Below, piece by piece: positions 35,238 to 46,931 of a stretch of DNA of 64,000 nucleotides. The notes under the pieces are model-generated. The model made no database searches and was not told the DNA's origin. It saw only the letters and a list, made by a program, of their open reading frames with translations. The stretch is from positions 1 to 64,000 of the forward strand of contig NZ_MKQD01000011.1 of assembly GCF_001913705.1 (NCBI RefSeq), written 5' to 3'. The stretch is from Thalassotalea sp. PP2-459. Lineage in GTDB: Bacteria; Pseudomonadota; Gammaproteobacteria; Enterobacterales; Alteromonadaceae. Position numbers and translations under genes: made by a program. The first letter of the stretch is position 1. Every line of letters starts with the position of its first letter.

Positions 35238-35267
35238 TGATCTTTATCCTTTATTAAGACGTAACGG
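35238..35267 (+). promoter_or_regulatory. Predicted ECF-sigma promoter for DUF2878-CHI-DUF3833
   Basis: -35 TGATCT (35238-35243), 18-bp spacer ending CG, -10 TAACGG (35262-35267), 28 bp before the DUF2878 ATG. It matches the other promoters at 37762, 37959 and 38589. Confidence 0.68.
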
Positions 35268-35295
35268 TAATTAATATCACCAATTTTTTACCGTT

Positions 35296-35793
35296 ATGTT
35301 GATCCACTTTATCTTGTTTAATTTACTATGGTTGGCGTTAGTCATTTACGGCAATGCTGCAATAATCTTAGCTTTACTTTGGTTGGGTGCTTTTGCATGG
35401 CACAAGAAACTGACGAGGCATGAATTTTATTTAGCTGCTGTTATCACCTTTCTCGGGATTAGTATAGATAACATTTTAACTGTCTTAGGCATCTTTAGAT
35501 TCCCTAACGAAACATTTATTCCTTATTGGCTAATAGTACTTTGGGCATGCTTTAGTTGTCTTTTATTGCGAGCGCCACAACAACTCAAAACGACTCGTTG
35601 GTTACAGGTAACGCTACCCATGTTCTTTGCGCCCTTAAGCTATTTTGTCGGCTTTCAGTTATCAGCCGTCAAGTTTGCTTGGGGTGTACTACCGACGATG
35701 TTATTGCTGTCTGTTATTTGGCCATTATTTATCATGTTAGCGTTCTCGTTAGAAAACTATTTGCTTGACAAGGAGCGTCACCGTGTCAGCTAA
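35296..35793 (+). CDS. DUF2878 inner-membrane protein
   Basis: A 165-residue, strongly hydrophobic protein with five or six predicted TM helices and no obvious active site. The family (DUF2878) is uncharacterised but recurs in Proteobacteria beside chalcone-isomerase-like, DUF3833, cyclopropane-synthase and ChrR genes, which is the case here. It begins the three-gene unit; its end overlaps the next gene by 11 bases. A role in a membrane lipid or envelope stress process is inferred from that company. Confidence 0.8.
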   Translation: MLIHFILFNLLWLALVIYGNAAIILALLWLGAFAWHKKLTRHEFYLAAVITFLGISIDNILTVLGIFRFPNETFIPYWLIVLWACFSCLLLRAPQQLKTTRWLQVTLPMFFAPLSYFVGFQLSAVKFAWGVLPTMLLLSVIWPLFIMLAFSLENYLLDKERHRVS

Positions 35794-36304
35794 ATCTATC
35801 GTATTTCTATGCTTATTAATGATGAGTACGGCACAAGCTAATCTATTGGCTATCAACAAGATTAAATCAGAATTAACACAAGTTGGTAAGGCGACCTTCT
35901 CATTCATGTTTTGGGATATTTATGAAAGTAAACTTTATACACAAGACGGGAGTTACAGCACAACTTCAAACCAACCTTTATTGCTGGACATTCATTATTT
36001 GAAAGATATTACACGGGATGATTTACTCGAAAATACCGTAGAGCAATGGCAATACTTAGGTTTTACAAAGGAGCAGTATGGTAAGTATCTTGATACTTTG
36101 CGTGTTCTTTGGCCAAACATTGAGAAGGGTGATTCCTTAGCTTTGCTTTATGCCAATAATCAAAGTCATTTTTATTTTAATGGTGAATTACTTGGCACAA
36201 TAGAAGATACAAAATTTGCAGAGGTATTTCTTGCAATATGGCTTTCTGAAAAAACAAGTCAGCCAGCACTTCGCAAACGTCTAATAGGAGAAATCAATGA
36301 ATAA
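35783..36304 (+). CDS. Exported chalcone-isomerase-like protein
   Basis: A 173-residue protein with a signal peptide (core SIVFLCLLMMSTAQA) and a CHI-like fold seen in the motif set FMFWDIYESKLYTQDG, PLLLDIHYLKDI and ANNQSHFYFNGELLGTIED. Bacterial CHI-like domains lack flavonoid substrates; eukaryotic relatives (FAP) bind fatty acids, so lipid binding is a fair guess. The start chosen is GTG 35783, because AAGGAG lies 7 bases upstream; the TTG at 35765 would have no good site. It overlaps DUF2878 by 11 and DUF3833 by 8 bases, so the three are translationally coupled. Confidence 0.82.
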   Translation: MSAKSIVFLCLLMMSTAQANLLAINKIKSELTQVGKATFSFMFWDIYESKLYTQDGSYSTTSNQPLLLDIHYLKDITRDDLLENTVEQWQYLGFTKEQYGKYLDTLRVLWPNIEKGDSLALLYANNQSHFYFNGELLGTIEDTKFAEVFLAIWLSEKTSQPALRKRLIGEINE

Positions 36305-36839
36305 TGTATTAACGTCTTTAGTCATTGCCACTTGTTTAATCGGTTGCAGCAGTGATGTGAGTGATTATCGAAATACCTCACCTAAATTAGACATTAAAAG
36401 CTATTTTTCGGGCAAGCTCGTGGGTTGGGGCATGGTTAATAAGTACAACAATAAAGTATCACGTCGATTCTGCGTTGAAATTATTGGCACTTGGCTGGGT
36501 AATAAAGGTGAACTTGATGAAACGTTTTATTTTTTAGATGGTGAAGTGTCTAAGCGTGTTTGGCAACTTAACCTTGAAGCTAATGGTAAATATAATGGTC
36601 AAGCCCATGATGTAATAGGCACTGCTAAAGGGCAACAAGTTGGTATGGCGTTTAATTGGCAATATGAGCTCGATATTCCGATTGATAACGATGTGATCCG
36701 GTTCTCAATGGATGACTGGATGTATCAATTAGATGACAATCGCGTGATGAATAAAACTGCCATGAATAAGTACGGAATAACGGTTGCACATATAACGTTA
36801 TTTTTCGATAAGTCTGTTCAACAGTGCTCTAATCGCTAA
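36297..36839 (+). CDS. DUF3833 family lipoprotein
   Basis: A 180-residue lipoprotein (IGCSS, Cys17). The mature domain (DIKSYFSGKLVGWGMV, then FDKSVQQC at the end) is typical of DUF3833, a family of unknown function with a lipocalin-like strand pattern. It overlaps the CHI-like gene by 8 bases. Its 3' end overlaps the convergent epimerase gene by 11 bases, with no terminator between them, so antisense interference is possible. Confidence 0.82.
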   Translation: MNNVLTSLVIATCLIGCSSDVSDYRNTSPKLDIKSYFSGKLVGWGMVNKYNNKVSRRFCVEIIGTWLGNKGELDETFYFLDGEVSKRVWQLNLEANGKYNGQAHDVIGTAKGQQVGMAFNWQYELDIPIDNDVIRFSMDDWMYQLDDNRVMNKTAMNKYGITVAHITLFFDKSVQQCSNR

Positions 36840-37731
36840 GTAAATCCAGTAACGCGCTGTTTAGTTGCGAATACTCAAATTGAAACCCATTGGCCAATAA
36901 TTTCTTGGGCACAACGTTTTGACCGTGGATAAATAAGTCTGACATTTCACCAAAAATAAGCTTCAACACAAAACTAGGAGTTGTAAATATGCATGGGCGA
37001 GATAGTTGTTTTGCTAGTGTTTCACTAAATACTTGATTAGTGACGGCATTCGGTGCTGTCATATTTACTGCACCGTTAATAGCTTTTTGCTCCATTAAAT
37101 AGATAATTGCGTTAACCATATCGTCAATGTGTATCCAGCTCATGACTTGTTCGCCGCTGGCAAACTTTCCACCTAAACCAAGCTTAAATGGTAGTAACAT
37201 TTTGTTAAGAGCACCCGCAGTTGTAGAAAGAACAATGCCTGTTCTTAACAGACATACACGCGTAGACGATGATTGTGCCTTTAACGCAATGTCTTCCCAC
37301 TGTTTGCAGATCTCATGTGAAAACTCTGGATAGTATTGCGTAAAGGTTTCATCTATTTGATAATTTCCTTGCCTGCCATAAATGCCTACGGCACTGCCAG
37401 ACAGTAATGTGTGAGGTGGTGTTTCACTTTGTTGGATGAGTTCAACAATTTTACCGGTCAAATCCCATCTGCTATGACAAATCTTTTGTTTTTGGCTCGT
37501 TGTCCATCGTTTATCAGCAATGGGTTCTCCTGCAAGGTTAATAACAATATCTGTTTGATCGATTAGCGTTTGATTAAGGCTAGTTATAAGATTAATTGCG
37601 CTACCTAAGCGAGCAGTGGCGTTATCAGGTGAGCGAGTTAACACTGAGATCTGATTGTCTTGATCAGATAATAATTGCTTTATCAGGACTTGTCCTATCA
37701 AGCCTGTTCCACCTGTCATTAATATTCGCAC
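36829..37731 (-). CDS. TIGR01777-family NAD(P)-binding epimerase-like protein
   Basis: A 300-residue SDR-fold protein (YfcH/SDR39U1 type) with TGGTGLIG near the N-terminus, NLAGEPIADKRW and SGSAVGIYG, and the C-terminal DUF1731-like region (LLANGFQFEYSQL). The substrate is unknown for the family. It is divergent from the LON-domain gene and has its own predicted ECF-sigma promoter (37762-37791), placing it in the photo-oxidative stress regulon. Confidence 0.88.
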   Translation of the reverse strand: MRILMTGGTGLIGQVLIKQLLSDQDNQISVLTRSPDNATARLGSAINLITSLNQTLIDQTDIVINLAGEPIADKRWTTSQKQKICHSRWDLTGKIVELIQQSETPPHTLLSGSAVGIYGRQGNYQIDETFTQYYPEFSHEICKQWEDIALKAQSSSTRVCLLRTGIVLSTTAGALNKMLLPFKLGLGGKFASGEQVMSWIHIDDMVNAIIYLMEQKAINGAVNMTAPNAVTNQVFSETLAKQLSRPCIFTTPSFVLKLIFGEMSDLFIHGQNVVPKKLLANGFQFEYSQLNSALLDLLSD

Positions 37732-37761
37732 TGTTTATCACCCATGAACTAAATAACTTAA

Positions 37762-37791
37762 TTAATACGTGTATTTTCTAAGTGTAGATCA
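37762..37791 (-). promoter_or_regulatory. Predicted ECF-sigma promoter for the TIGR01777 gene
   Basis: Read on the minus strand: -35 TGATCT (37791-37786), 18-bp spacer ending CG, -10 TATTAA (37767-37762), 30 bp before the ATG at 37731. Confidence 0.66.
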
Positions 37792-37826
37792 CTTAAAAAC
37801 TTTTATATTTTTTAACGATAATAATT

Positions 37827-37855
37827 TGATCCAATTCAAAAACTTGCCGTAGTAC
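37827..37855 (+). promoter_or_regulatory. Weak second ECF-like promoter candidate
   Basis: TGATCC (37827-37832), 17-bp spacer ending CG, then TAGTAC. The spacer is one base shorter than in the other four and a closer match exists downstream, so it may be chance. Confidence 0.3.
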
Positions 37856-37958
37856 TTTGCGACCTATGTGAGAGAAGGAATTGACAAGTGAATTATATTT
37901 TCACTGAGTATTTATAAAATATGCATGTTAATTTTTCTTTAATTTAGGTACTTTTTTG

Positions 37959-37988
37959 TGATCAAAACCTAAGGTAGTTACGTAATAA
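37959..37988 (+). promoter_or_regulatory. Predicted ECF-sigma promoter for the LON-domain gene
   Basis: -35 TGATCA (37959-37964), 18-bp spacer ending CG, -10 TAATAA (37983-37988), 27 bp before the ATG. Confidence 0.65.
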
Positions 37989-38015
37989 CTACAAAGACAT
38001 CAATAAAAGATATTA

Positions 38016-38576
38016 ATGAAGTTACCAATATTTCCACTGCCTGTATTTCTGCTACCACAAGGAATTACACGGTTACGCATTTTTGAACAACGCTATTTAA
38101 AGATGGTGAAATTGGCAATCAAAGAGCATGGCTTTGCCATTTTGTCGACGGTTAGTGGCGAGCATAAAGGTGTGGAAAATTGGGCGAGCTGGGTTGATAT
38201 TATTAATTTTGATCAAGATAAACATGGCGTGTTAACGATTGATGTTAAATGTAAGTCAATCGTTTCAGTCTCGGAACTTTCAGAAGATAAATACAAATTA
38301 AAGTACGCCGATATTGTTCCTCAAAATCATTGGCCTGAAGAACGTTATGATGACGTAACAAACAGGTTGTCACAATCATTGTTAAAAATATTTGAAGAAA
38401 ATAACTTACTGAGTGATCTCTATCAATCTGGTTTTAATGACAATGCTAATTGGATAATGTCGCGTTGGGTAGAGTTGCTACCGATCACACTTGAGGAAAA
38501 AATGATATTTGCTCAACAAAACTCTTATCCAATGGCGAAGCAATTTATTGCAAATATTGTCTTAGTAGAAAAATAA
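38016..38576 (+). CDS. LON N-terminal-domain (substrate-binding) protein
   Basis: A 186-residue protein made of only the Lon substrate-binding domain, with the typical start LPIFPLPVFLLPQGITRLRIFEQRYL. No ATPase or Ser-Lys protease part is present. Stand-alone LON-domain proteins are common but poorly understood; near ChrR a role in recognising damaged proteins or in stress signalling is possible but unproven. It lies between two ECF-type promoters and is followed by the sigma gene. Confidence 0.87.
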   Translation: MKLPIFPLPVFLLPQGITRLRIFEQRYLKMVKLAIKEHGFAILSTVSGEHKGVENWASWVDIINFDQDKHGVLTIDVKCKSIVSVSELSEDKYKLKYADIVPQNHWPEERYDDVTNRLSQSLLKIFEENNLLSDLYQSGFNDNANWIMSRWVELLPITLEEKMIFAQQNSYPMAKQFIANIVLVEK

Positions 38577-38588
38577 ATTAACGTTGAG

Positions 38589-38618
38589 TGATCCAGTCAC
38601 TTAATTGCTGCGTATTGG
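38589..38618 (+). promoter_or_regulatory. Predicted autoregulated promoter of the sigma-chrR operon
   Basis: -35 TGATCC (38589-38594), 18-bp spacer ending CG, -10 TATTGG (38613-38618), 30 bp before the sigma start. The -35 equals the Rhodobacter sigma-E consensus. Confidence 0.72.
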
Positions 38619-38648: not shown

Positions 38649-39275
38649 ATGGTTACAGGGCAAATAAGCTTGTCAGTTACAGCTTCAAGTGTTAAACCTA
38701 AAGCTATGATCGATTCAACTGAACATCAACAGTTAAGTCAATGGCTTATATCTGTTGCAAATCATCGAGACAAAGCGGCATTTAGCGAACTGTTTAAGTT
38801 TTTTGCCCCTAAAATTTTGCGTATCGCTAAAAACAAAATTGGTAGTGAAGCGCAAGCAAGTGAAATAGTGCAAGAGACCATGTCTAATATTTGGCGTAAA
38901 GCTCACTTATTTGACGCCCAAAAAGGAGCACCCACGACGTGGGTATATACGGTAATGCGAAATGTTACCTTTGACATGCTGAGAAAAGTTAAAAGTAACC
39001 GTGAAGATACCTTAAGCGATGACATTTGGCCATTAGCTGAACAGTCAGCATCAGAAGATGAACCGTTTGAAGATCATCTCGCACAAAATAACATATTGTC
39101 TGTTATAGAAACACTTCCTGAAAATCAGCAGCAAGTGATTAAAGGCTTTTACTTTATGGAGATGTCGCAAGAGCAACTTGCCAATCACCTTGGTTTACCT
39201 TTAGGCACAATAAAATCACGACTACGCCTAGCCTTAGCGAAACTAAAGGCGCAGTTAGGAGAACACCATGATTAA
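38649..39275 (+). CDS. ECF-family RNA polymerase sigma factor, singlet-oxygen type (RpoE/SigE of ChrR pairs)
   Basis: A 208-residue ECF sigma factor with region 2 (about 45-112, FSELFKFFAPKILRIAKNK and TWVYTVMRNVTFDMLR) and region 4 (about 150-203, LPENQQQVIKGFYFMEMSQEQLA). It is cotranscribed with, and overlaps by 8 bases, its ChrR-type anti-sigma gene. Relatives respond to singlet oxygen and organic peroxides. ATG 38649 has GGAAG 8 bases upstream; an upstream in-frame TTG is less likely. Its own promoter has the regulon motif, so it is probably autoregulated. Confidence 0.92.
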   Translation: MVTGQISLSVTASSVKPKAMIDSTEHQQLSQWLISVANHRDKAAFSELFKFFAPKILRIAKNKIGSEAQASEIVQETMSNIWRKAHLFDAQKGAPTTWVYTVMRNVTFDMLRKVKSNREDTLSDDIWPLAEQSASEDEPFEDHLAQNNILSVIETLPENQQQVIKGFYFMEMSQEQLANHLGLPLGTIKSRLRLALAKLKAQLGEHHD

Positions 39276-39948
39276 GCATCATCCTACCTTTGAAATGTTA
39301 ACTGCCTATGTGGCAGGAGAGTTACTGGCATCACTGGCTGCTGGTATTAGCATTCACGCGGATAAATGCGAGAAATGTAAAAAACAGATTAGCCTATTAA
39401 CTGAGCAATTGGCGGAAGTGAGTTTTGATCATGATCAGGATTTATTAAACATTGATCAATTAAGTAATCAAAACGCTATATCAGTTGATTTTGAGCAAAT
39501 GATCAACAATATTTGTGAAGATGACAGTATAACAATAGCTAAACCCGTTGAAGCAAAAACGATAACGTTACGCGACACAACATATGAACTACCCAGAGCT
39601 ATACAAAATATGGAAATAACCAATACCGCTAGTATTGGTAAGCTTTCACGGGCCAGAGTAATGTTGGATGAAGGTGAAATTCATACAAGCTTAGTGCACA
39701 TTGAGCCAGGCGGTGGCGTGCCCATGCATACACATAATGGCTTTGAACTTACTGTATTGGTTGAAGGTAGCTTTACTGATGAAATGGGTGAGTATTTTCC
39801 AGGCGACTTTATTATGCTTGATGGTCAGCACGAACATAACCCAGTGTCGGCTCAAGGGTGTTTGTGTTATACGGTAGCCAATGCACCGCAAAAATTTACA
39901 CAAGGGATTAATAAATTGCTTAACCCTATTGGTAACTTTATTTATTAA
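39268..39948 (+). CDS. chrR: ChrR-family zinc anti-sigma factor with cupin domain
   Basis: A 226-residue anti-sigma factor. The N-terminal anti-sigma domain has zinc ligands His5, His30, Cys34 and Cys37, one residue off the Rhodobacter numbering (6, 31, 35, 38). The C-terminal cupin (about 125-215) has His154, His156, Glu160 and His190, with spacing like ChrR's second metal site, and a Cys-x-Cys at 198/200. In the model system, singlet oxygen makes ChrR release sigma, allowing proteolysis. The DUF523 gene follows 11 bp after its stop. Confidence 0.92.
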   Translation: MIKHHPTFEMLTAYVAGELLASLAAGISIHADKCEKCKKQISLLTEQLAEVSFDHDQDLLNIDQLSNQNAISVDFEQMINNICEDDSITIAKPVEAKTITLRDTTYELPRAIQNMEITNTASIGKLSRARVMLDEGEIHTSLVHIEPGGGVPMHTHNGFELTVLVEGSFTDEMGEYFPGDFIMLDGQHEHNPVSAQGCLCYTVANAPQKFTQGINKLLNPIGNFIY

Positions 39949-39959
39949 CAGGTGAAATT

Positions 39960-40919
39960 ATGCATAGTTCATTTGATAAAAAAGACATTACAGTTGGAAT
40001 AAGCGCTTGTATTGCTGGTGAAAAAGTTCGTTTTGATGCGAGTAATAAACCTTCAAATTTCTGTATGAAAGAATTGGCGCAACACGTCACTTTTAAAACA
40101 TTTTGCCCTGAAGTTGCTATTGGTTTACCTGTACCTAGGCCTACGATCAGGTTAATTGAAAAAGATAATGTTATCAAAGTGGCAAGACCTGATGGTAGTG
40201 GAGATGTGACAGAAGCATTATCAGCATATGGCAAAAAAATCGCTAAATTTGCGGATAGCTTTAGTGGCTTTATTTTTTGTGCCAAAAGCCCAAGTTGCGG
40301 TATGGAGCGTGTAAAAATTTACTCACCTGAAGGTAATCCACTTCCTGCTACTGGGGTGGGGGCTTTTGCCGAGCAGATTATGGCGGCAAATCCATTGTTA
40401 CCGTGTGAAGAAAATGGTCGTTTAAACGATCCAATAATTAAAGAAAACTTTGTTGCTAGAGTTTTTGCTTATAAGCATTGGCAGTCATTGGTTGAATCAG
40501 GGTTAACAAAACACAAGCTAACAACATTTCATAGTGAATATAAATATACGGTGATGAGTCATGATCTTGTTGCCTATAAAAAGCTAGGGCAATTACTTGC
40601 TAGCAATGAACTGCCTATCGAAGAGCTTGCACAACAATATATTACGGGCTTAATGGCAGCCTTGAGAATCAAAGCAACGCGAAAAAACCATGCAAATACG
40701 TTGTCGCATATTCAAGGTTATTTTTCAAAGCACCTTTCGCCAGAGCAAAGGCAAGAACTTTGTCAGCAAATCGAAGCGTTTCGCACTGGTTTAGTGCCAC
40801 TTTTCGTGCCTTTAACCTTGATAAAGCATTATTTATTGTCACACCCCAAGTCGTATCTGGCTAAGCAGACTTATTTAAACCCGTACCCAGAAAGTTTAAA
40901 GCTACGCTACGGCTATTAA
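39960..40919 (+). CDS. DUF523/DUF1722 protein (YbgA-like)
   Basis: A 319-residue two-domain protein: an N-terminal DUF523 (about 8-150) with conserved Cys positions (ISACIAGEKVRFD, FCPEVAIG, CAKSPSCG) that suggest a thiol or metal centre, and a C-terminal DUF1722 (about 175-310). This fusion is very often found beside photolyase genes, as here (phr 83 bp downstream). Its biochemical role is unknown. Its distance from chrR suggests one transcription unit with sigma and chrR. Confidence 0.88.
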   Translation: MHSSFDKKDITVGISACIAGEKVRFDASNKPSNFCMKELAQHVTFKTFCPEVAIGLPVPRPTIRLIEKDNVIKVARPDGSGDVTEALSAYGKKIAKFADSFSGFIFCAKSPSCGMERVKIYSPEGNPLPATGVGAFAEQIMAANPLLPCEENGRLNDPIIKENFVARVFAYKHWQSLVESGLTKHKLTTFHSEYKYTVMSHDLVAYKKLGQLLASNELPIEELAQQYITGLMAALRIKATRKNHANTLSHIQGYFSKHLSPEQRQELCQQIEAFRTGLVPLFVPLTLIKHYLLSHPKSYLAKQTYLNPYPESLKLRYGY

Positions 40920-40929
40920 TTTAACCTAT

Positions 40930-40959
40930 ATCGATGAAGACTACATGGTCTTTGTCGAT
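40930..40959 (+). promoter_or_regulatory. Hairpin before the photolyase gene, possible attenuator
   Basis: Stem ATCGATGAAGAC / GTCTTTGTCGAT, 12 bp with two G-U pairs and a 6-base loop, followed by ATTCATTTCTTT. The T-rich tail is interrupted, so termination would be weak. Confidence 0.4.
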
Positions 40960-41002
40960 ATTCATTTCTTTGATTAACATACATTTTGGCATATGAGACG
41001 TT

Positions 41003-42403
41003 ATGCAAATACTTTGGTTTAGAAACGACTTACGCGTGCATGATAATCCAGCTTTGCACCATTTTTTAATGCATTATCAATCCGGCGATCGGGCTATTTA
41101 TTTGTTAACGCCAGCTCAATGGCACCAACATCACTGGTCGCGTATTAAAATTGATTTGATTAAACGACACGTAGCGTTACTGAGCAAACAGTTAAATGAA
41201 CTAGGTGTGCAATTAGAGGTTTATCACGTTGATGACTTTGAACAACAAGTTGAGTTTATTATCAATGAAAATGAACAAGGCTCTGCAATTCATTTTATTG
41301 CAAATGAAGAACTTGAGATTAACGAAAGACAGCGGGATGAAAAATTAAAAAGTAAGGGGGTAACATTAACGTTATTTGAAGCAGACGTTATTGTTAGTAA
41401 AGGGAAAGTACTTAATCAAACGGGTGAAATGTTTAAAGTGTTCACCCCTTTTAAGCGTGCTTGGTTACGTCATGTAAAAAATGATGGTGTTGAATATTTG
41501 GGCAAACCAGACAAGCGAACAACTGCCATTGAAATTAATGATGAACCAGTCAACCATGCAAATAACGACGTTTTACAGGGTGACAACTCGTCGTCGCAAT
41601 GGCCATTAATTGATGAAGTTGAAGCGCATACTATTCCTGCCTTTTTTGCTAACAAACATGACCAATATCATGAATTTCGAGATATACCTTCCATCAAAGG
41701 CACATCAGGTCTATCACCCTATTTAGCTATCGGCGCGTTAAGCCCAAGGTATTTACTACAATTAATTTTGAACAAACATCCAGATTTATTAACTGCGCAT
41801 GATAGTCCTGCGTTTTCATGGCTTAATGAACTCATTTGGCGCGACTTCTATCGTCATCTGTTGCATCATTTTCCTAAACTGTGTCGGCATAAAATGTTTA
41901 ATGATAAATATGCAAACATTACTTGGCCGTATGATAAAGCGAAATTTGATGCGTGGTGTTTAGGACAAACGGGTTACCCCATTGTTGATGCTGCGATGCG
42001 TCAACTCAATCAAACTGGCTGGATGCATAATCGCTTGAGAATGGTCGTTGCGAGTTTTCTCACTAAACATTTATTAATTGATTGGCGACTAGGTGAACAA
42101 TACTTTATGTCAAAATTAATTGATGGTGATCTTGCTGCAAATAATGGTGGCTGGCAATGGGCAGCGAGCACAGGGTGTGATGCGCAGCCGTACTTTAGAA
42201 TTTTTAATCCGATCCGACAAGGGGAAAGATTTGATCCTAAAGGTGAGTTTGTACGTAAGTATTTACCAGAGCTTGATAAAGTGCCTGACAAGCATGTTCA
42301 CTTTCCGCATAGTTATATGAAGTCTCATTCTGATATAGCTTATTGGCCGGCAATTGTTGATCATAAAGTGGCGAGAGAACAAGCGCTAGCATTTTATCGA
42401 TAA
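41003..42403 (+). CDS. phrB: Deoxyribodipyrimidine photolyase (class I CPD)
   Basis: A 466-residue flavoprotein with an N-terminal antenna domain (LWFRNDLRVHDNPAL) and a C-terminal FAD/catalytic domain. The signatures are WLNELIWRDFYRHLL, TGWMHNRLRM and NNGGWQWAASTG. The Asn-Gly-Gly-Trp segment and the Trp electron-transfer positions fit CPD photolyase rather than 6-4 or cryptochrome-DASH. It repairs UV-induced pyrimidine dimers using blue light. It is in a block under photo-oxidative sigma control; no sigma-type promoter lies just upstream, so it is probably read from the sigma-chrR promoter. Confidence 0.95.
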   Translation: MQILWFRNDLRVHDNPALHHFLMHYQSGDRAIYLLTPAQWHQHHWSRIKIDLIKRHVALLSKQLNELGVQLEVYHVDDFEQQVEFIINENEQGSAIHFIANEELEINERQRDEKLKSKGVTLTLFEADVIVSKGKVLNQTGEMFKVFTPFKRAWLRHVKNDGVEYLGKPDKRTTAIEINDEPVNHANNDVLQGDNSSSQWPLIDEVEAHTIPAFFANKHDQYHEFRDIPSIKGTSGLSPYLAIGALSPRYLLQLILNKHPDLLTAHDSPAFSWLNELIWRDFYRHLLHHFPKLCRHKMFNDKYANITWPYDKAKFDAWCLGQTGYPIVDAAMRQLNQTGWMHNRLRMVVASFLTKHLLIDWRLGEQYFMSKLIDGDLAANNGGWQWAASTGCDAQPYFRIFNPIRQGERFDPKGEFVRKYLPELDKVPDKHVHFPHSYMKSHSDIAYWPAIVDHKVAREQALAFYR

Positions 42404-42437: not shown

Positions 42438-42914
42438 TTGCGACGACATATTGAGCAAGTATCTGAACATGGTATAGAACAGAGACCAGCGTGGTTGGTA
42501 AACTTCTGTGATACCTATCAATCTCTTTCTGCGGATAGTTCTTTTGAAGAGCTCGCACTAATCTATCACCATGATGTTGCTTTTATTGACCCTATGCACG
42601 AAATAAATGGCTTGGTTAATTTGACAAAATACTTTAGCGAACTCTACGAAAACGTAGCATATTGCCAATTTAAGATTACCCAATCTTTCTATCAACATCA
42701 GCATGCCGCTGTGTACTGGTCGATGACTTATCAACATACAAAGCTAAATAGCGGCAAGCCGATTGTCGTTGAAGGGCATTCCTACTTAGAAGCAAAGGGA
42801 GGGAAAGTTATTTACCATCGAGATTATCTCGATTTAGGTCAAATGCTGTACCAACATGTTCCTATTCTAGGACGAATTATTTCTTGGCTAAAAGCGCGGA
42901 TAAAAACAGTATGA
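42438..42914 (+). CDS. NTF2/SnoaL-like protein
   Basis: A 158-residue protein of the nuclear transport factor 2 (cone-shaped alpha+beta) fold: WLVNFCDTYQSLS start helix, FIDPMHEINGLVNLTKYFSELY, and strand pairs ending HSYLEAKGGKVIYHRDYLD. Members recur in ChrR-linked operons but their reaction is unknown; some NTF2 folds are enzymes, others ligand binders. The start is TTG (42438) with GGGG upstream. Its end overlaps the SDR start by four bases (ATGA). Confidence 0.8.
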   Translation: MRRHIEQVSEHGIEQRPAWLVNFCDTYQSLSADSSFEELALIYHHDVAFIDPMHEINGLVNLTKYFSELYENVAYCQFKITQSFYQHQHAAVYWSMTYQHTKLNSGKPIVVEGHSYLEAKGGKVIYHRDYLDLGQMLYQHVPILGRIISWLKARIKTV

Positions 42915-43627
42915 ACATTGACAAAAATGTACTAATTACCGGTGCTACTTCAGGTATCGGAGCAGCGCTATTTGCTCTTTTCAGTAAACACGGTCACACC
43001 CTGTATCCATGTGGCCGCAATGAAGAAAAGCTTCGAGAGCTTAAGGAACATTCTACTAGGTGTCAGCCTTTATCGTTTGACATTAATGAAATCGAGCAAG
43101 TGAACCTAGCGGCGAGTCAGGTAGATGCAATCGATATACTGATATTAAATGCGGGCGATTGTGCTTATATTGATGATGCTATGGCATTTGATGCCGCTAA
43201 TTTTGCGCGCATTATCAATACCAATTTAACGTCATTAGGTAATGTGTTAGCTGCGTTTTTGCCAAAAATGAACAAGGGTGGACAAGTGGTATTTGTCAGT
43301 TCAGCGGCAACATTATTACCGTTTCCTAAAGCTGAAGCCTATGGCGCATCAAAAGCAGGAATAAATTATCTGGCAAACAGTTTGAGAATTGATCTTGAAA
43401 AATACCAAATCGGTGTAAGTTTAGTGCATCCAGGCTTTGTTGAAACCCCCTTAACCGATAGAAATACCTTTGACATGCCTTTTATACTTTCAGCTTCAGA
43501 AGCTGCTCAACGCATCTATAAAGGTGTTATGAAGAAAAAACAATACATACATTTTCCCAGAAGATTAACATGGCTATTAAAAGTACTTGCTTTTATGCCT
43601 CAATTTTTAAGACATCGTTTGATGTAA
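42911..43627 (+). CDS. Short-chain dehydrogenase in the ChrR-linked operon
   Basis: A 238-residue classical SDR with TGATSGIG near residue 11, catalytic Ser (VSSAATL), Tyr and Lys (YGASKAG). The substrate is unknown; in this operon a fatty-acid or lipid substrate is likely. ATG 42911 overlaps the preceding stop, so a longer frame from 42884 was not used. Confidence 0.88.
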   Translation: MNIDKNVLITGATSGIGAALFALFSKHGHTLYPCGRNEEKLRELKEHSTRCQPLSFDINEIEQVNLAASQVDAIDILILNAGDCAYIDDAMAFDAANFARIINTNLTSLGNVLAAFLPKMNKGGQVVFVSSAATLLPFPKAEAYGASKAGINYLANSLRIDLEKYQIGVSLVHPGFVETPLTDRNTFDMPFILSASEAAQRIYKGVMKKKQYIHFPRRLTWLLKVLAFMPQFLRHRLM

Positions 43628-43641
43628 ATAGGTAATGACTA

Positions 43642-44910
43642 ATGAAGCGTATAGCAGTTATTGGCGCAGGCATATCAGGTTTAACCGCAGCACATTTATT
43701 GTCTAAAAAACACAATGTTAGTGTTTTTGAAAGCCAAACTAATATTGGTGGGCACACGGCGACTGTTGATGTAACCGTTGCGGGAAAATCATATGCAATC
43801 GATACCGGTTTTATTGTTTTTAATAATAAAACCTACCCAAATTTTTTAGCTTTACTCGCAAGCATTGGTGTTGATAAACAAGCCACTGAAATGAGCTTTT
43901 CAGTGCATAATTGTCATACAGGGCTAGAATACAATGGCCATACCTTAGCAACACTTTTTGCGCAGAAGCGAAATATATTGAACCCCAAGTTTTGGCGTTT
44001 AATATTCGATATATTGCGTTTTAATAAACTCTGTAAAGCTGTCTTTCAGCAACAAGATATCTCTGAACATGAAACCTTAGGCGGTTTCTTGCAACAAAAT
44101 GACTTTAATCAATATTTTGCAGAGCATTATATTTTACCCATGGGGGCGGCGATTTGGTCGAGCTCATTGGAACAAATGGAACAGTTTCAACTGCGTTTCT
44201 TTATTCAATTTTTCTATAACCATGGTTTGTTAAATGTGACAGATAGGCCTCAGTGGTATGTAATTCCCAAAGGTTCTAGAAATTACCTCGCGCCTTTAAT
44301 CGCACCCTTTAAAGATAGTATTACTGTAGATGCAGAAATATGTTCAGTGCAACGACATGACGATGGCGTAACCTTGGTTTTTGAAGATAAATCTGAACAG
44401 ATATTTGACGACGTAGTGTTTGCTTGCCATTCAGATCAGGCTCTTGCGTTACTAGATGCACCAACACCGGCAGAAAGGGAAATACTTTCAGCGATGCCTT
44501 ATGCGGCCAATTCAGTGGTGTTGCATACTGATGAAACATTGTTACCAGTGCGCAAGAAGGCTTGGGCAAGTTGGAATTATCAATTAAGTGATAACCGAAC
44601 AAAACCTGCAAGCGTTACCTATAACATGAATATATTGCAGGGATTAGACACTGAACATACATTTTGCGTGACGCTTAATCAAAAAGCAGCAATCGCCCCA
44701 GAAAAAATACTCAGAGAATTTACGTATCATCACCCTGTATTTTCTGTGCAATCGTTGGAAGCACAGCAACGACGTAGCGAAGTATGTGGTGTTGGCAACA
44801 CGCATTTTTGTGGAGCCTATTGGTATAATGGCTTTCATGAAGATGGCGTAAGAAGTGCGCTTGATGTTGCTGCTAGGTTTGATTGCTTTTTATCAGAAGA
44901 CAGCGAATGA
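43642..44910 (+). CDS. FAD-dependent amine-oxidase-like oxidoreductase
   Basis: A 422-residue flavoprotein with an N-terminal dinucleotide motif (AVIGAGISGLTAAHLL), GGHTATVDV and a C-terminal region (CGAYWYNGFHEDGVRSA) typical of the NAD/FAD-binding proteins that accompany cyclopropane-synthase genes. The family may desaturate or oxidise acyl chains. It overlaps the DUF1365 gene by four bases. Confidence 0.9.
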   Translation: MKRIAVIGAGISGLTAAHLLSKKHNVSVFESQTNIGGHTATVDVTVAGKSYAIDTGFIVFNNKTYPNFLALLASIGVDKQATEMSFSVHNCHTGLEYNGHTLATLFAQKRNILNPKFWRLIFDILRFNKLCKAVFQQQDISEHETLGGFLQQNDFNQYFAEHYILPMGAAIWSSSLEQMEQFQLRFFIQFFYNHGLLNVTDRPQWYVIPKGSRNYLAPLIAPFKDSITVDAEICSVQRHDDGVTLVFEDKSEQIFDDVVFACHSDQALALLDAPTPAEREILSAMPYAANSVVLHTDETLLPVRKKAWASWNYQLSDNRTKPASVTYNMNILQGLDTEHTFCVTLNQKAAIAPEKILREFTYHHPVFSVQSLEAQQRRSEVCGVGNTHFCGAYWYNGFHEDGVRSALDVAARFDCFLSEDSE

Positions 44911-45683
44911 AAACGCACACGTTTACCCCGTTAAACTCCTATGTTTATGTTGGAAGTATTCAGCACAGAAGGTTTACGCCAAAGCGGCATCAATTTTCTT
45001 ATCGCTTGTATATGCTTGCACTCAATGTCGATAAGCTTGAGCAAGCGTTTTCAGCCTCACGTTTACTCGGTAAAAAGTGGTGGCAGCCAATAAGATTTGT
45101 TGAAAAAGATTACCTAGCAGGTGAACCAGGATCTCTTAAGGTACGTATTATAGATAAAGTGAGGGCACTGGGTGGTACGTCTACTATCTCGCAAGTTGTG
45201 ATGCTCGTTCAAGCAAGAAGCTTTGGCATTTACTTTAGTCCAGCAAATTTTTATTTTTGTTACGACGATTATGGGCAATGCCGCTATATGTTAGCGGAAG
45301 TGAGTAATACACCATGGAATGAACGCCATTATTACTTGGTTGACTTACAAGGTAAAAAGATCAACGAAAAAGCATTTCATGTCTCGCCCTTTATGGATTT
45401 AGACATGCACTATTTATGGCAAGTTAAGCCCCCAGAACATATGGACGATAATTTGTTGATCCATATAGAAAACAGAAAAATGAATCAAGGTGATAAGTTA
45501 AAAGTATTTGATGCCCATTTAAGGTTGAAGAAACAACCCTTAGCAGCAAAAACATTAATGAAAACCTGGTGTCAATTGCCAGCGATGTCTTTGTCAATTG
45601 TAACGGGCATTTATTGGCAAGCATTAAAGTTATTTTTAAAAAAAATACCGTTTGTTTCTTATCAGCAGAAAAAAAGATTATAG
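44907..45683 (+). CDS. DUF1365 family protein
   Basis: A 258-residue protein of DUF1365, with SIQHRRFTPKRHQFSYRLYM start and the block FYFCYDD, NTPWNERHYYLVD and FHVSPFMDLDMHYLW. The function is unknown, but the family is tightly tied to cyclopropane-fatty-acid-synthase-like and FAD oxidoreductase genes. It overlaps the FAD gene by four bases and precedes the methyltransferase gene by 15 bp. Confidence 0.92.
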   Translation: MKTHTFTPLNSYVYVGSIQHRRFTPKRHQFSYRLYMLALNVDKLEQAFSASRLLGKKWWQPIRFVEKDYLAGEPGSLKVRIIDKVRALGGTSTISQVVMLVQARSFGIYFSPANFYFCYDDYGQCRYMLAEVSNTPWNERHYYLVDLQGKKINEKAFHVSPFMDLDMHYLWQVKPPEHMDDNLLIHIENRKMNQGDKLKVFDAHLRLKKQPLAAKTLMKTWCQLPAMSLSIVTGIYWQALKLFLKKIPFVSYQQKKRL

Positions 45684-45698: not shown

Positions 45699-46931
45699 GT
45701 GGAGCAACTTGTAGAAAGTAAGGTTAAAGAGCCAGCAGAAACTTGGATAAACAAACGTTGTCGTGATCTAGTGTTTTCAGTATTAGACAAAATTCAGTTC
45801 GGTTGTATTGAAATTATTCAAGGTTCTTCTACCTATAGGTTTCCAGAGAATCGAACCAACTCTGAAAGTATTACTGGCACCATTGTTGTTCATGATACAT
45901 CGACTTATCGTGACTTCGTTCGTGGTGGTAGCATAGGTGCTGCAGAAGCTTTTATTGATGGAAAATGGAGCTCACCAAACCTCACAAAAGTAATACAAAT
46001 TTTTGCTCGTGCACAGCAACTGACAGATGAACTTGAGAAAAATGCTTCTTGGCTTGGTAAGTTAAAAAATGCGATTTATCACCGTTTTAATCGAAACAGT
46101 CAACAAGGCTCAAAACGCAACATTCTTGCACACTACGATTTGGGTAACGAACTCTACTCACGCTTTTTAGATCCAGAAATGGTTTATTCCGCCGCTATTT
46201 ATCCATCCGAAAAGGCAAGCTTAGCGGAAGCACAAAAACACAAATTAGATACTATTTGTCAACGACTGTCATTGCACGAAACTGACCACTTGTTAGAAAT
46301 AGGTACAGGGTGGGGCGGATTAGCCGTTCATGCGGCAATGCATTATGGCTGTAAAGTCACCACAACAACTATCTCTGATGCACAGCACGCATACGCGACA
46401 GAAAAGATAAAGGCATTAGGTTTAGAAGATCGTATTACTTTATTGAAAGAAGATTACCGTATGCTAACCGGTGAATACGATAAACTCGTGTCGATAGAAA
46501 TGATAGAAGCTGTTGGCTATGATTACCTACCGAGCTTCTTTCAACAGTGTCACGCTCGGTTGAAACCAGGCGGTAAATTGCTGATACAGTCGATAACTAT
46601 TGCTGATCAGCGCTTTGATTATTATCGAAAGAATGTTGATTTTATTCAACGATACATTTTCCCAGGAGGTTTTTTACCTTCAATTAATGAGCTAACAAAG
46701 CAACTGACCAAGCATACGTCGTTGGTGATGGAAGAGTTGCATGATATAGGGCTACATTATGCAAAAACGTTAGCAGATTGGCGTAAAGCTTTTTTAAAGG
46801 CTTGGCCAGAACTATCCACCTTAGGTTATGACGAAGAATTCAAACGCTTATGGCTGTATTATTTTGCTTATTGTGAAGGCGCGTTTATTGAGCGCTCAAC
46901 AAGTACCGTGCATTTGATTGCAAGAAAATAA
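45699..46931 (+). CDS. Cyclopropane-fatty-acid-synthase-like SAM methyltransferase
   Basis: A 410-residue enzyme with the SAM-binding motif LLEIGTGWGGLAVHAA, an upstream lipid-binding region and CFA-family signatures (YSAAIYPSEKASLAEAQKHK, FIQRYIFPGGFLPS). It adds a methylene or methyl group to unsaturated acyl chains in membrane lipids. Homologues in the Rhodobacter sigma-E regulon are linked to singlet-oxygen response and to methylated or furan fatty acids, so the product may not be a plain cyclopropane. The start is GTG (45699) with TAGGAG upstream. A bidirectional terminator follows. Confidence 0.9.
   Translation: MEQLVESKVKEPAETWINKRCRDLVFSVLDKIQFGCIEIIQGSSTYRFPENRTNSESITGTIVVHDTSTYRDFVRGGSIGAAEAFIDGKWSSPNLTKVIQIFARAQQLTDELEKNASWLGKLKNAIYHRFNRNSQQGSKRNILAHYDLGNELYSRFLDPEMVYSAAIYPSEKASLAEAQKHKLDTICQRLSLHETDHLLEIGTGWGGLAVHAAMHYGCKVTTTTISDAQHAYATEKIKALGLEDRITLLKEDYRMLTGEYDKLVSIEMIEAVGYDYLPSFFQQCHARLKPGGKLLIQSITIADQRFDYYRKNVDFIQRYIFPGGFLPSINELTKQLTKHTSLVMEELHDIGLHYAKTLADWRKAFLKAWPELSTLGYDEEFKRLWLYYFAYCEGAFIERSTSTVHLIARK

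Follow-up and report, generated by a model that had tools for sequence, protein, structure and literature searches.

A putative ECF11-type promoter embedded in the photolyase gene of a gammaproteobacterial RpoE-ChrR regulon

The region described here, part of a 64-kb window (the whole stretch of DNA that was analysed), very probably represents the light/singlet-oxygen regulon of an ECF11 (RpoE-ChrR) system in a gammaproteobacterium, in which four intergenic promoters are joined by a fifth, embedded in the photolyase gene. The fifth match is what is new here, the sigma and LON promoters being already known from Shewanella. Judging from codon usage at this site, it is likely that in many genera a stress promoter lies in the photolyase reading frame, where it would dictate silent codons and narrow one residue to amino acids whose codons start with A.

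Genes and motif matches in the window

The predicted genes and sites of the region are as follows.

35238..35263, +, predicted ECF11-type promoter TGATC-N17-CGTA before DUF2878-CHI-DUF3833 (exact match)
35296..35793, +, DUF2878 gene (Pfam PF11086)
35765..36304, +, chalcone-isomerase-like gene (CHI), ORF as listed, start codon uncertain (PF16036)
36297..36839, +, DUF3833 gene (Pfam PF12915)
36829..37731, -, TIGR01777 family oxidoreductase gene (TIGR01777, 345.5 bits, cut-off 207.35)
37766..37791, -, predicted ECF11-type promoter before the TIGR01777 gene (exact match)
37827..37851, +, TGATC-N16-CGTA, probable orphan promoter of a fasciclin-domain gene (motif match)
37959..37984, +, predicted ECF11-type promoter before the LON-domain gene (exact match)
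38016..38576, +, stand-alone LON substrate-binding-domain gene (Pfam PF02190)
38589..38614, +, predicted ECF11-type promoter before sigma-chrR, autoregulation (exact match)
38649..39275, +, ECF sigma factor gene (PF04542 and PF04545/PF08281, regions 2 and 4; NF009178, 317.5 bits, cut-off 301)
39268..39948, +, ChrR anti-sigma gene (TIGR02451, 151.1 bits, cut-off 124.5; Cupin_7)
39960..40919, +, 2-thiouracil desulfurase/DUF1722 gene (PF04463, PF08349)
41003..42403, +, photolyase gene with the putative embedded promoter (PF00875, PF03441; NF007955 above cut-off)
42232..42257, +, putative ECF11-type promoter embedded in the photolyase ORF (exact match, relatives, codon invariance)
42438..42914, +, SnoaL/NTF2-like gene, first behind the embedded site, TTG start as listed (PF12680)
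42884..43627, +, short-chain dehydrogenase gene (PF00106)
43642..44910, +, flavin amine-oxidase-like gene, UfaD-like by domain and place (PF01593)
44907..45683, +, DUF1365 gene, UfaO-like by domain (PF07103)
45699..46931, +, cyclopropane-synthase-like methyltransferase gene, UfaM-like by domain and place (PF02353)

By its predicted proteins, the locus has the composition of an ECF11 (RpoE-ChrR) system: a sigma factor with regions 2 and 4 is neighboured by a cupin-type zinc anti-sigma factor, and the ChrR translation carries HxxxCxxC as HADKCEKC and HxHxxxE as HTHNGFE. ECF11 core targets are also found in the window by domain, namely the photolyase and genes of the furan-fatty-acid type.

The motif TGATC-N17-CGTA (N19 before TA) has five exact matches in the 64 kb, against a mean of 0.31 and a maximum of 3 in 100 dinucleotide shuffles of the window; four of them lie between predicted genes. 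When one mismatch is allowed, 15 matches are found against a mean of 9.44, and 6 of 100 shuffles reach 15, so that the exact form of the motif alone stands out. The four sites of the original prediction are real, being exact occurrences of TGATC...CGTA at 35238-35263 (+), 37766-37791 (-), 37959-37984 (+) and 38589-38614 (+), and several of their particulars have been revised. Their spacer, given as N18 before TA, is N17 before CGTA, and none of the four is among the 12 window matches to TGATC-N18-TA (chance mean 7.94; 8 of 100 shuffles reach 12); TGATC-N16-CGTA, proposed for a genome scan, matches the window solely at 37827-37851, a site missing from that list. Both patterns were dropped because neither describes the four sites. 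The minus-strand site had been placed at 37762, and the start codons (35296 ATG, 37731 GTG on the minus strand, 38016 ATG and 38649 ATG) lie 31-34 nt from CGTA rather than 27-30 bp. As a complete set the four promoters fell short, the fifth exact match at 42232-42257 having been overlooked.

Nor is the CG at the end of the spacer a lineage-specific feature, as had been proposed, since published motifs from Rhodobacter, Shewanella, Vibrio and P. syringae all include it: the Pos19 promoter of R. sphaeroides is given as TGATCC(N15)GCGTA (PMC5036791), the sigmaE-ChrR motif of V. cholerae as TGATC-N16-18-CGTAW (PMC5241685), the ChIP-seq consensus of PSPTO_1043/1042 in P. syringae as TGATCCn16CGTA (PMC5507510), and the same promoter, TGATC-N17-CGTA, is reported for the sigma (SO_1986) and Lon-domain (SO_1987) genes of Shewanella oneidensis (PMC4336711).

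Conservation of the intergenic promoters

Conservation was counted over 41 loci with motif spacings of N16-18 accepted; of the 66 further genomes with the sigma, 40 supplied the sigma regions of relatives. With the window included, the motif is found upstream of sigma in 33 of 41 loci (25 with N17, 8 with N16), of the LON gene in 23 of 36 and of TIGR01777 in 5 of 5, its spacing being close to constant before all three, whereas for eight further genes in these clusters the count is 0 of 213. The proposal that one signal ties all four units together is supported for sigma, LON and TIGR01777; for DUF2878-CHI-DUF3833 the case is weaker, with the motif in 2 of 12 loci (the window and one other). 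All four intergenic promoters are kept in G529, a genome of the same genus; in G528 the TIGR01777 promoter is kept and that of DUF2878-CHI-DUF3833 is absent. On these counts, the sites before sigma, LON and TIGR01777 show the pattern expected of conserved ECF11 (RpoE-ChrR) promoters. In G529 an N17 form of the 37827 site precedes a multi-FAS1 gene. Relatives have a fasciclin-domain gene at this place which is missing from the present genome, and 37827-37851 is probably its orphaned promoter.

Activity of the four intergenic promoters would be expected by analogy with Shewanella and others. In Shewanella, chrR and SO_1987 are reported to go up upon sigma expression, and start sites have been mapped for rpoE2 and pgpD in the RpoE2 system (PMC4336711).

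The match within the photolyase gene

The fifth match spans the stretch of the photolyase ORF that encodes FDPKGEFVR-K, and 180 bp separate it from the genes of the furan-fatty-acid type that follow. The embedded motif is present in 50 of 54 photolyases that precede those genes in sigma genomes, in 1 of 7 in genomes without sigma, and in 5 of 68 elsewhere, a class whose sigma status is known for all but 46 of the 68 rows. By genus the values are 25/28, 1/5 and 4/46, in which codes and names are mixed, so that genera may be counted twice. Duplicates (L149, L162 and L222) were removed before this count, which also drops loci whose best photolyase match is below 36% identity (L127 and L147) and those without a photolyase match (L144, L145 and photolyase-free sigma regions); downstream DNA was insufficient in 3 of 132 loci (L131, L164 and L226), and one set of relatives was limited to the 80 best matches among at least 593. 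A search for the peptide pattern ([FY]DPxGx[FY][IVM]R or close, with the next codon not T-starting) gave 62 places, 19 in sigma-region stretches (window included), 40 fetched and 3 left out (G031 and the second places of G057 and G135). For 14 named genomes the sigma label was set by whether ChrR exceeded its cut-off; by sigma match alone the genome of L168 (3.9e-23) would pass 1e-20, which leaves the 50/54 and 1/7 classes unchanged.

Exact motifs are missing from four adjacent loci with sigma (L121, L141, L172 and L185), L121 and L185 being one base off, and the one sigma-less genome retaining the motif is that of L109. The motif also occurs in five photolyases that are not in this arrangement (L112, L137, L167, L168 and L190); at L112 sigma is present and NTF2 follows the photolyase, and a FAD-type gene was not found. 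Four relatives beyond the 50/54 count (L270-L273) all have the motif, and it is absent from G308 and G253, two class genomes with FAD behind the photolyase, taken here irrespective of sigma status. Where NTF2 stands behind chrR or DUF1722 with no photolyase in between, the motif lies directly upstream of it in 4 of 5 loci (L080, L082, L084 and L086; not L085). For NTF2 genes divergent from LON an exact site precedes NTF2 in 0 of 4 loci (L101-L104; in L104 the only site is that before sigma) and in 1 of 3 further ones (L277; not L274 or L276).

A DNA-level constraint acts on the photolyase codons at this site. Among 105 conserved degenerate columns in 53 rows, the three most codon-invariant are those of the motif, i.e. 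GAT in 53/53, CGT in 51/53 and TTT in 50/52, where locus codon usage predicts the TTT/GAT/CGT combination in 7.5 of 53. The codon after the Arg begins with A in 50 of 53, across K, T, I, M, N, S and R, and only one other variable column among 239, a D/E column, exceeds it in first-base constancy. In a set of 34 members, which was defined less strictly (it includes L109, without sigma, and L112, without a FAD-type gene, and omits L128, L129, L141 and the partial L146), 11 other conserved Arg columns show CGT in at most 15 of 34. In Thalassomonas and Enterovibrio the peptide is altered (Gly to Ala and Gly to Val, respectively) and the DNA motif is intact. Two spacer wobble positions showed no difference between the photolyase groups.

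The motif could be a coincidence, with the preferred codons of FDPxGxF[IV]R-K simply spelling TGATC-N17-CGTA in related sequences. The peptide is common in photolyases and TTTGATCC is frequent elsewhere too, the five photolyases outside the arrangement have the motif, and loci with the arrangement group together on the tree, which offers only 9 independent pairs, an underpowered number (5.0 the same way, 0.6 opposite and 3.4 ties; median p 0.125). In addition, part of the contrast between groups is at the protein level, because the peptide is less conserved in outside photolyases (Pro codon in 54/75, vs 52/53 in the arrangement). However, all columns share one tree, yet near-invariance is limited to the motif codons; the residue after the Arg varies among unlike amino acids with a common first base A; and the motif is missing from 6 of 7 adjacent loci without sigma. 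Moreover, among the places fitting the peptide pattern in 369 class genomes, only those of the window and G006 have the motif. We therefore regard coincidence as unlikely.

It seems very unlikely that the codon constraint is real yet has a function other than driving the next genes, for instance in an RNA structure, a protein-binding site or a small RNA derived from the 3' end. In favour of this reading, the evidence consists of sequence conservation, and 180 bp lie between the site and the first gene; on the other side, the constrained bases are the -35 and -10 elements of the sigma factor with the spacing of its own promoter, and the constraint tracks sigma and the following genes. With the same bases and spacing conserved at the photolyase site beyond the need of the protein, we infer that the embedded site is an ECF11 promoter within an enzyme gene, its promoter activity being deduced from the DNA constraint.

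Known systems, proposed mechanism and further candidates

The system resembles Shewanella oneidensis RpoE2-ChrR, whose reported targets are sigma, the Lon-domain gene, the ybgA-phrB-cfa genes and a periplasmic glutathione peroxidase; TIGR01777 is not among the regulon-table entries noted from that source (PMC4336711). Unlike here, that account treats SO_3386-SO_3374 as one operon, and the parts available do not mention a promoter inside the photolyase gene (PMC4336711). Likewise, the genes from sigma to the cyclopropane synthase might form a single operon read from the sigma promoter, which we consider possible though doubtful, and which is compatible with an embedded promoter. The genes share one strand with mostly tight spacing, as the one-operon view of Dai et al. 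would have it, whereas the embedded site is under selection and, both in the window and in some relatives, hairpins lie between DUF1722 and the photolyase, a weak point because terminator-like matches in the region number 10 vs 9.7 in shuffles.

Rhodobacter sphaeroides sigmaE-ChrR likewise has the sigma/ChrR pair, and UfaM/UfaD/UfaO in its regulon; its gene arrangement differs, and a LON-domain neighbour goes unmentioned in the parts of those reports available (PMC6852236, PMC5036791, PMC7380195). Vibrio cholerae has a like motif and blue-light control through ChrR, with no discussion of an embedded promoter in the available text (PMC5241685). In Pseudomonas syringae the ECF11 promoter of phrB lies within the upstream ORF PSPTO_1122, is active and serves phrB, whereas here the site is inside the photolyase gene and faces later genes; codon-level constraint across genera is a further feature that sets the present site apart (PMC5507510). 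Intragenic sites that look like promoters are difficult to interpret; in that species 54 of 87 motif-bearing ChIP peaks were intragenic, and its authors advise caution (PMC5507510).

In the mechanism that we propose, inactivation of ChrR would free the sigma factor, which would then read the TGATC-N17-CGTA promoters of its own operon, the LON gene, TIGR01777 and DUF2878-CHI-DUF3833, as well as the fifth promoter, close to the 3' end of the photolyase ORF. The latter would start a transcript for the NTF2-SDR-UfaD-UfaO-UfaM-like genes, making furan-fatty-acid synthesis switchable apart from the long sigma transcript. If true, a separate conserved promoter would allow this arm to be switched independently of the sigma operon, and the site would be a bacterial case of dual-use codons with built-in natural controls, as it is mostly missing where sigma is absent or furan-fatty-acid-type genes do not follow. 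A promoter imprint can thus be carried in a protein alignment, and such a codon-level signature offers a means of telling functional intragenic promoters from noise.

In the whole genome there are 38 exact matches to TGATC-N17-CGTA, vs 21 for the reversed pattern in a control pooling coding and non-coding DNA; 29 fall inside ORFs of at least 60 aa and 9 outside, the window accounting for 4 of the latter, with its minus-strand site at 37766 judged separately. The matches were not taken as one regulon, since merely 9 of 38 are intergenic. Candidates before mtnN (L001, 107 bp) and at L007 (195 bp) were unconvincing, that of ferrochelatase (L021) falls within the gene upstream, and for a CHI promoter in other genera conservation was too low for a claim, as 13 of 36 loci have the motif before the gene. 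With the present genome counted, the exact motif recurs in relatives before genes for a glutathione peroxidase (6 of 16), a lipoprotein (5 of 10) and a DCC1-like protein (2 of 16).

The motif and the known ECF11 regulon

Pfam and NCBIfam matches place in the region, in order, genes for DUF2878, a chalcone-isomerase-like protein (CHI), DUF3833, TIGR01777, a stand-alone LON substrate-binding domain, an ECF sigma factor and ChrR, followed by a 2-thiouracil desulfurase/DUF1722 protein, a photolyase, a SnoaL/NTF2-like protein (NTF2), an SDR, an amine-oxidase-like protein (the FAD-type gene), DUF1365 and a cyclopropane-synthase-like methyltransferase. According to the available parts of two reports, Rhodobacter UfaO, which contains DUF1365, makes furan fatty acids together with UfaM and UfaD (PMC7380195), and the core regulon comprises ~8 genes, rpoE-chrR and furan-fatty-acid genes among them (PMC6852236). 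Judged by domains and place, three genes of the window are putative UfaD-, UfaO- and UfaM-like genes.

Four ECF promoters of the form TGATC-N18-TA had been predicted here, and all four sites are present, as exact copies of TGATC-N17-CGTA.

Motif sites and the LON-domain gene in the window
35238-35263, plus strand, exact TGATC-N17-CGTA
37766-37791, minus strand, exact TGATC-N17-CGTA
37827-37851, TGATC-N16-CGTA, counterpart of an N17 site in the same-genus genome G529
37959-37984, plus strand, exact TGATC-N17-CGTA
38016-38576, stand-alone LON-domain gene beside sigma-chrR, found in 36 loci
38589-38614, plus strand, exact TGATC-N17-CGTA
42232-42257, plus strand, exact TGATC-N17-CGTA, within the photolyase ORF (41003-42403)

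The predicted spacing was one off: TGATC-N18-TA is near chance (12 matches, shuffle mean 7.94) and includes none of the four sites, and the sole window match to the proposed TGATC-N16-CGTA scan is the other site, at 37827. TGATC-N17-CGTA has five matches in the window versus a mean of 0.31 in shuffles (maximum 3); with one mismatch permitted the excess is slight (15 versus 9.44). The whole genome holds 38 exact matches versus 21 for the reversed pattern, nine of the 38 lying outside ORFs, four of these in the window. At the four reported sites CGTA lies 31-34 nt before the start codon. Nor is the CG a lineage-specific feature, as had been proposed, since the same motif with CG is printed, in the available text, for the Pos19 promoter of R. 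sphaeroides (PMC5036791) and for S. oneidensis (PMC4336711), V. cholerae (PMC5241685) and P. syringae (PMC5507510). The S. oneidensis report further states that sigma expression raised chrR and the Lon-domain gene, and maps the sigma's start site (PMC4336711). Thus the motif was already known from these sources, as were the promoters of sigma and LON, and the original prediction, apart from spacing and CG, was mostly correct in its reading of a known regulon; the members added here are TIGR01777 and the placement of DUF2878-CHI-DUF3833. No role for the LON-domain gene beside sigma-chrR was seen in the printed parts consulted; as a guess, its protein might be an adaptor through which ChrR or oxidised proteins are degraded.

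The sigma was searched in 148 genomes of the order, 67 of which (own included) match at E <= 1e-20. Sigma-region stretches from 40 of the other 66, together with the window, gave 41 loci, in which TGATC-N16-18-CGTA was scored <=200 bp upstream of each gene. A single signal for the four gene sets holds for sigma (33/41 loci, 25 with N17 and 8 with N16; 8 without an exact site), LON (23/36; 13 without) and TIGR01777 (5/5), but is weak for DUF2878 (2/12); CHI has the motif in 1/22. Eight other cluster genes have it in 0/213 (ChrR 41, DUF1722 20, photolyase 19, SDR 28, FAD 28, DUF1365 28, cyclopropane synthase 28 and DUF3833 21). The same-genus genome G529 keeps all four reported sites, G527 those of LON and sigma (its contig ends before the other two), and G528 those of TIGR01777, LON and sigma, the DUF2878 site being absent. 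In G529 the N17 counterpart of 37827-37851 precedes a fasciclin-domain gene between TIGR01777 and LON; in the window only 284 bp separate these two genes and the fasciclin-domain gene is missing, so that 37827-37851 probably either persists as a relic or gives LON a second start.

A conserved site within the photolyase gene

NTF2 carries the motif upstream in 13/28 loci, which led to the fifth site, a predicted embedded promoter and the new part of this analysis. It encodes F-D-P-K-G-E-F-V-R-K within the photolyase, 180 bp before the NTF2-like gene, and recurs at the equivalent photolyase position in relatives' maps. The DNA pattern listed 62 peptide-fitting places in the 148 order genomes; in 369 class genomes, such places carry the motif only in the window and in genome G006. 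Photolyase regions were fetched for 40 places, plus 80 named ones (the best 80 of at least 593), and 132 distinct photolyases were counted, 3 of them unclassable; adjacency was defined as a FAD-type gene <=2 kb downstream, and sigma or ChrR searches gave sigma status for unlinked cases. The exact motif is present in 50/54 photolyases with a FAD-type gene behind and sigma in the genome, versus 5/68 without a FAD-type gene behind (Fisher p ~1.6e-23, kinship ignored) and 1/7 with the FAD-type gene in genomes without sigma (p 2.5e-5, kinship ignored). Four more relatives with the arrangement (L270-L273), outside the 132, all have the site.

Several cases run against the association. Loci L121, L141, L172 and L185 have sigma and the genes without the exact motif (one base off in L121 and L185). 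L109 retains the motif with sigma and ChrR both absent, and in L137, L167, L168 and L190 it occurs outside the arrangement. L112 has the motif with NTF2 behind, and no FAD-type gene was found there. The FAD-type gene was found in 113 class genomes; possible further exceptions are two of these outside the order, G308 and G253, in which it lies by coordinates <=2 kb behind a pattern-fitting photolyase lacking the motif. On a photolyase tree with the motif columns removed, the supported branches yielded nine independent pairs, 5.0 for, 0.6 against and 3.4 tied (median p 0.125), a direction that fits, with too little power in nine pairs.

Codon constraint at the embedded site

The site is constrained at the codon level, and the constraint is linked to sigma and to the downstream genes. 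Among 105 conserved degenerate-codon columns in 53 full-length photolyases of the first class (sigma plus FAD-type gene), the motif supplies the three with the least codon variation, GAT (53/53), CGT (51/53) and TTT (50/52), the next column reaching 45/53; as all columns share one ancestry, this contrast is not due to relatedness. Locus codon usage predicts the three together in 7.5/53, and in an earlier 34-member set CGT occupied at most 15/34 in each of 11 other conserved Arg columns. At the motif's columns other photolyases have CGT in 23/75 and GAT in 39/75, a group contrast that lies partly at the protein level, since the peptide's Pro is less constant there (54/75); two spacer wobble positions show no group difference (p = 0.54 and 1).

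The codon following Arg has A as its first base in 50/53 despite varied residues (K 34, T 5, R 5, I 3, M 2, N 2, S 1, L 1), and of 239 variable columns just one, a D/E column, exceeds it in first-base constancy; in the remaining photolyases A is first in 18/75, with R, Q or H as the residue in 51/75. In Thalassomonas (Gly to Ala) and Enterovibrio (Gly to Val) the peptide is altered and the DNA motif intact.

Predicted transcripts and further candidate members

Freed sigma would bind the embedded site, giving a transcript with a leader of ~170 nt over the photolyase 3' end that would continue into NTF2-SDR-FAD-DUF1365-methyltransferase. Where NTF2 follows chrR or DUF1722 with no intervening photolyase, the motif lies immediately before NTF2 in 4/5 loci; where NTF2 is divergent from LON, an exact site precedes it in 0/4 loci of one set and 1/3 of another, so that the rule fails for that arrangement. 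In P. syringae, according to the available text, an ECF11 promoter that lies within a neighbouring ORF is active (PMC5507510). For the photolyase treated here, no report of an internal or embedded promoter came up among titles and abstract openings, with partial journal coverage, whether the searches were general, aimed at such a promoter or aimed at the DUFs together with ChrR.

Our guess is that the sigma transcript is partly terminated in the DUF1722-photolyase gap. Eleven of 13 such gaps were folded (two were too short); by eye, stable hairpins differing in sequence occur in the window and several relatives, other relatives being without, and a terminator scan of the region gave no excess (10 matches versus 9.7 in shuffles). 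The window's gap holds a 15-pair hairpin with a T-rich tail at 40928-40961, and unrelated hairpins lie there in some relatives.

Elsewhere, a glutathione peroxidase gene (L015/L228), whose product by eye likely has a signal peptide, carries an intergenic motif, exact in 6/16 genomes; the available text on Shewanella lists the periplasmic glutathione peroxidase pgpD as an RpoE2 target (PMC4336711). A small lipoprotein-like gene without a Pfam match (L028/L260), with the motif upstream in 5/10 genomes (own included), is a candidate regulon member. Upstream of a DCC1-like thiol-disulfide oxidoreductase gene (L008/L244) the motif is exact in 2/16 and one base off in several more. Finally, where CHI lies behind the cyclopropane synthase, TGATC-N16-18-CGTA precedes CHI in 13/36 loci, in nine of them inside an open frame (L077, L079, L081, L088, L093, L108, L110, L111, L174), possibly a second embedded promoter; in five of these nine the site overlaps a DUF2878 match.
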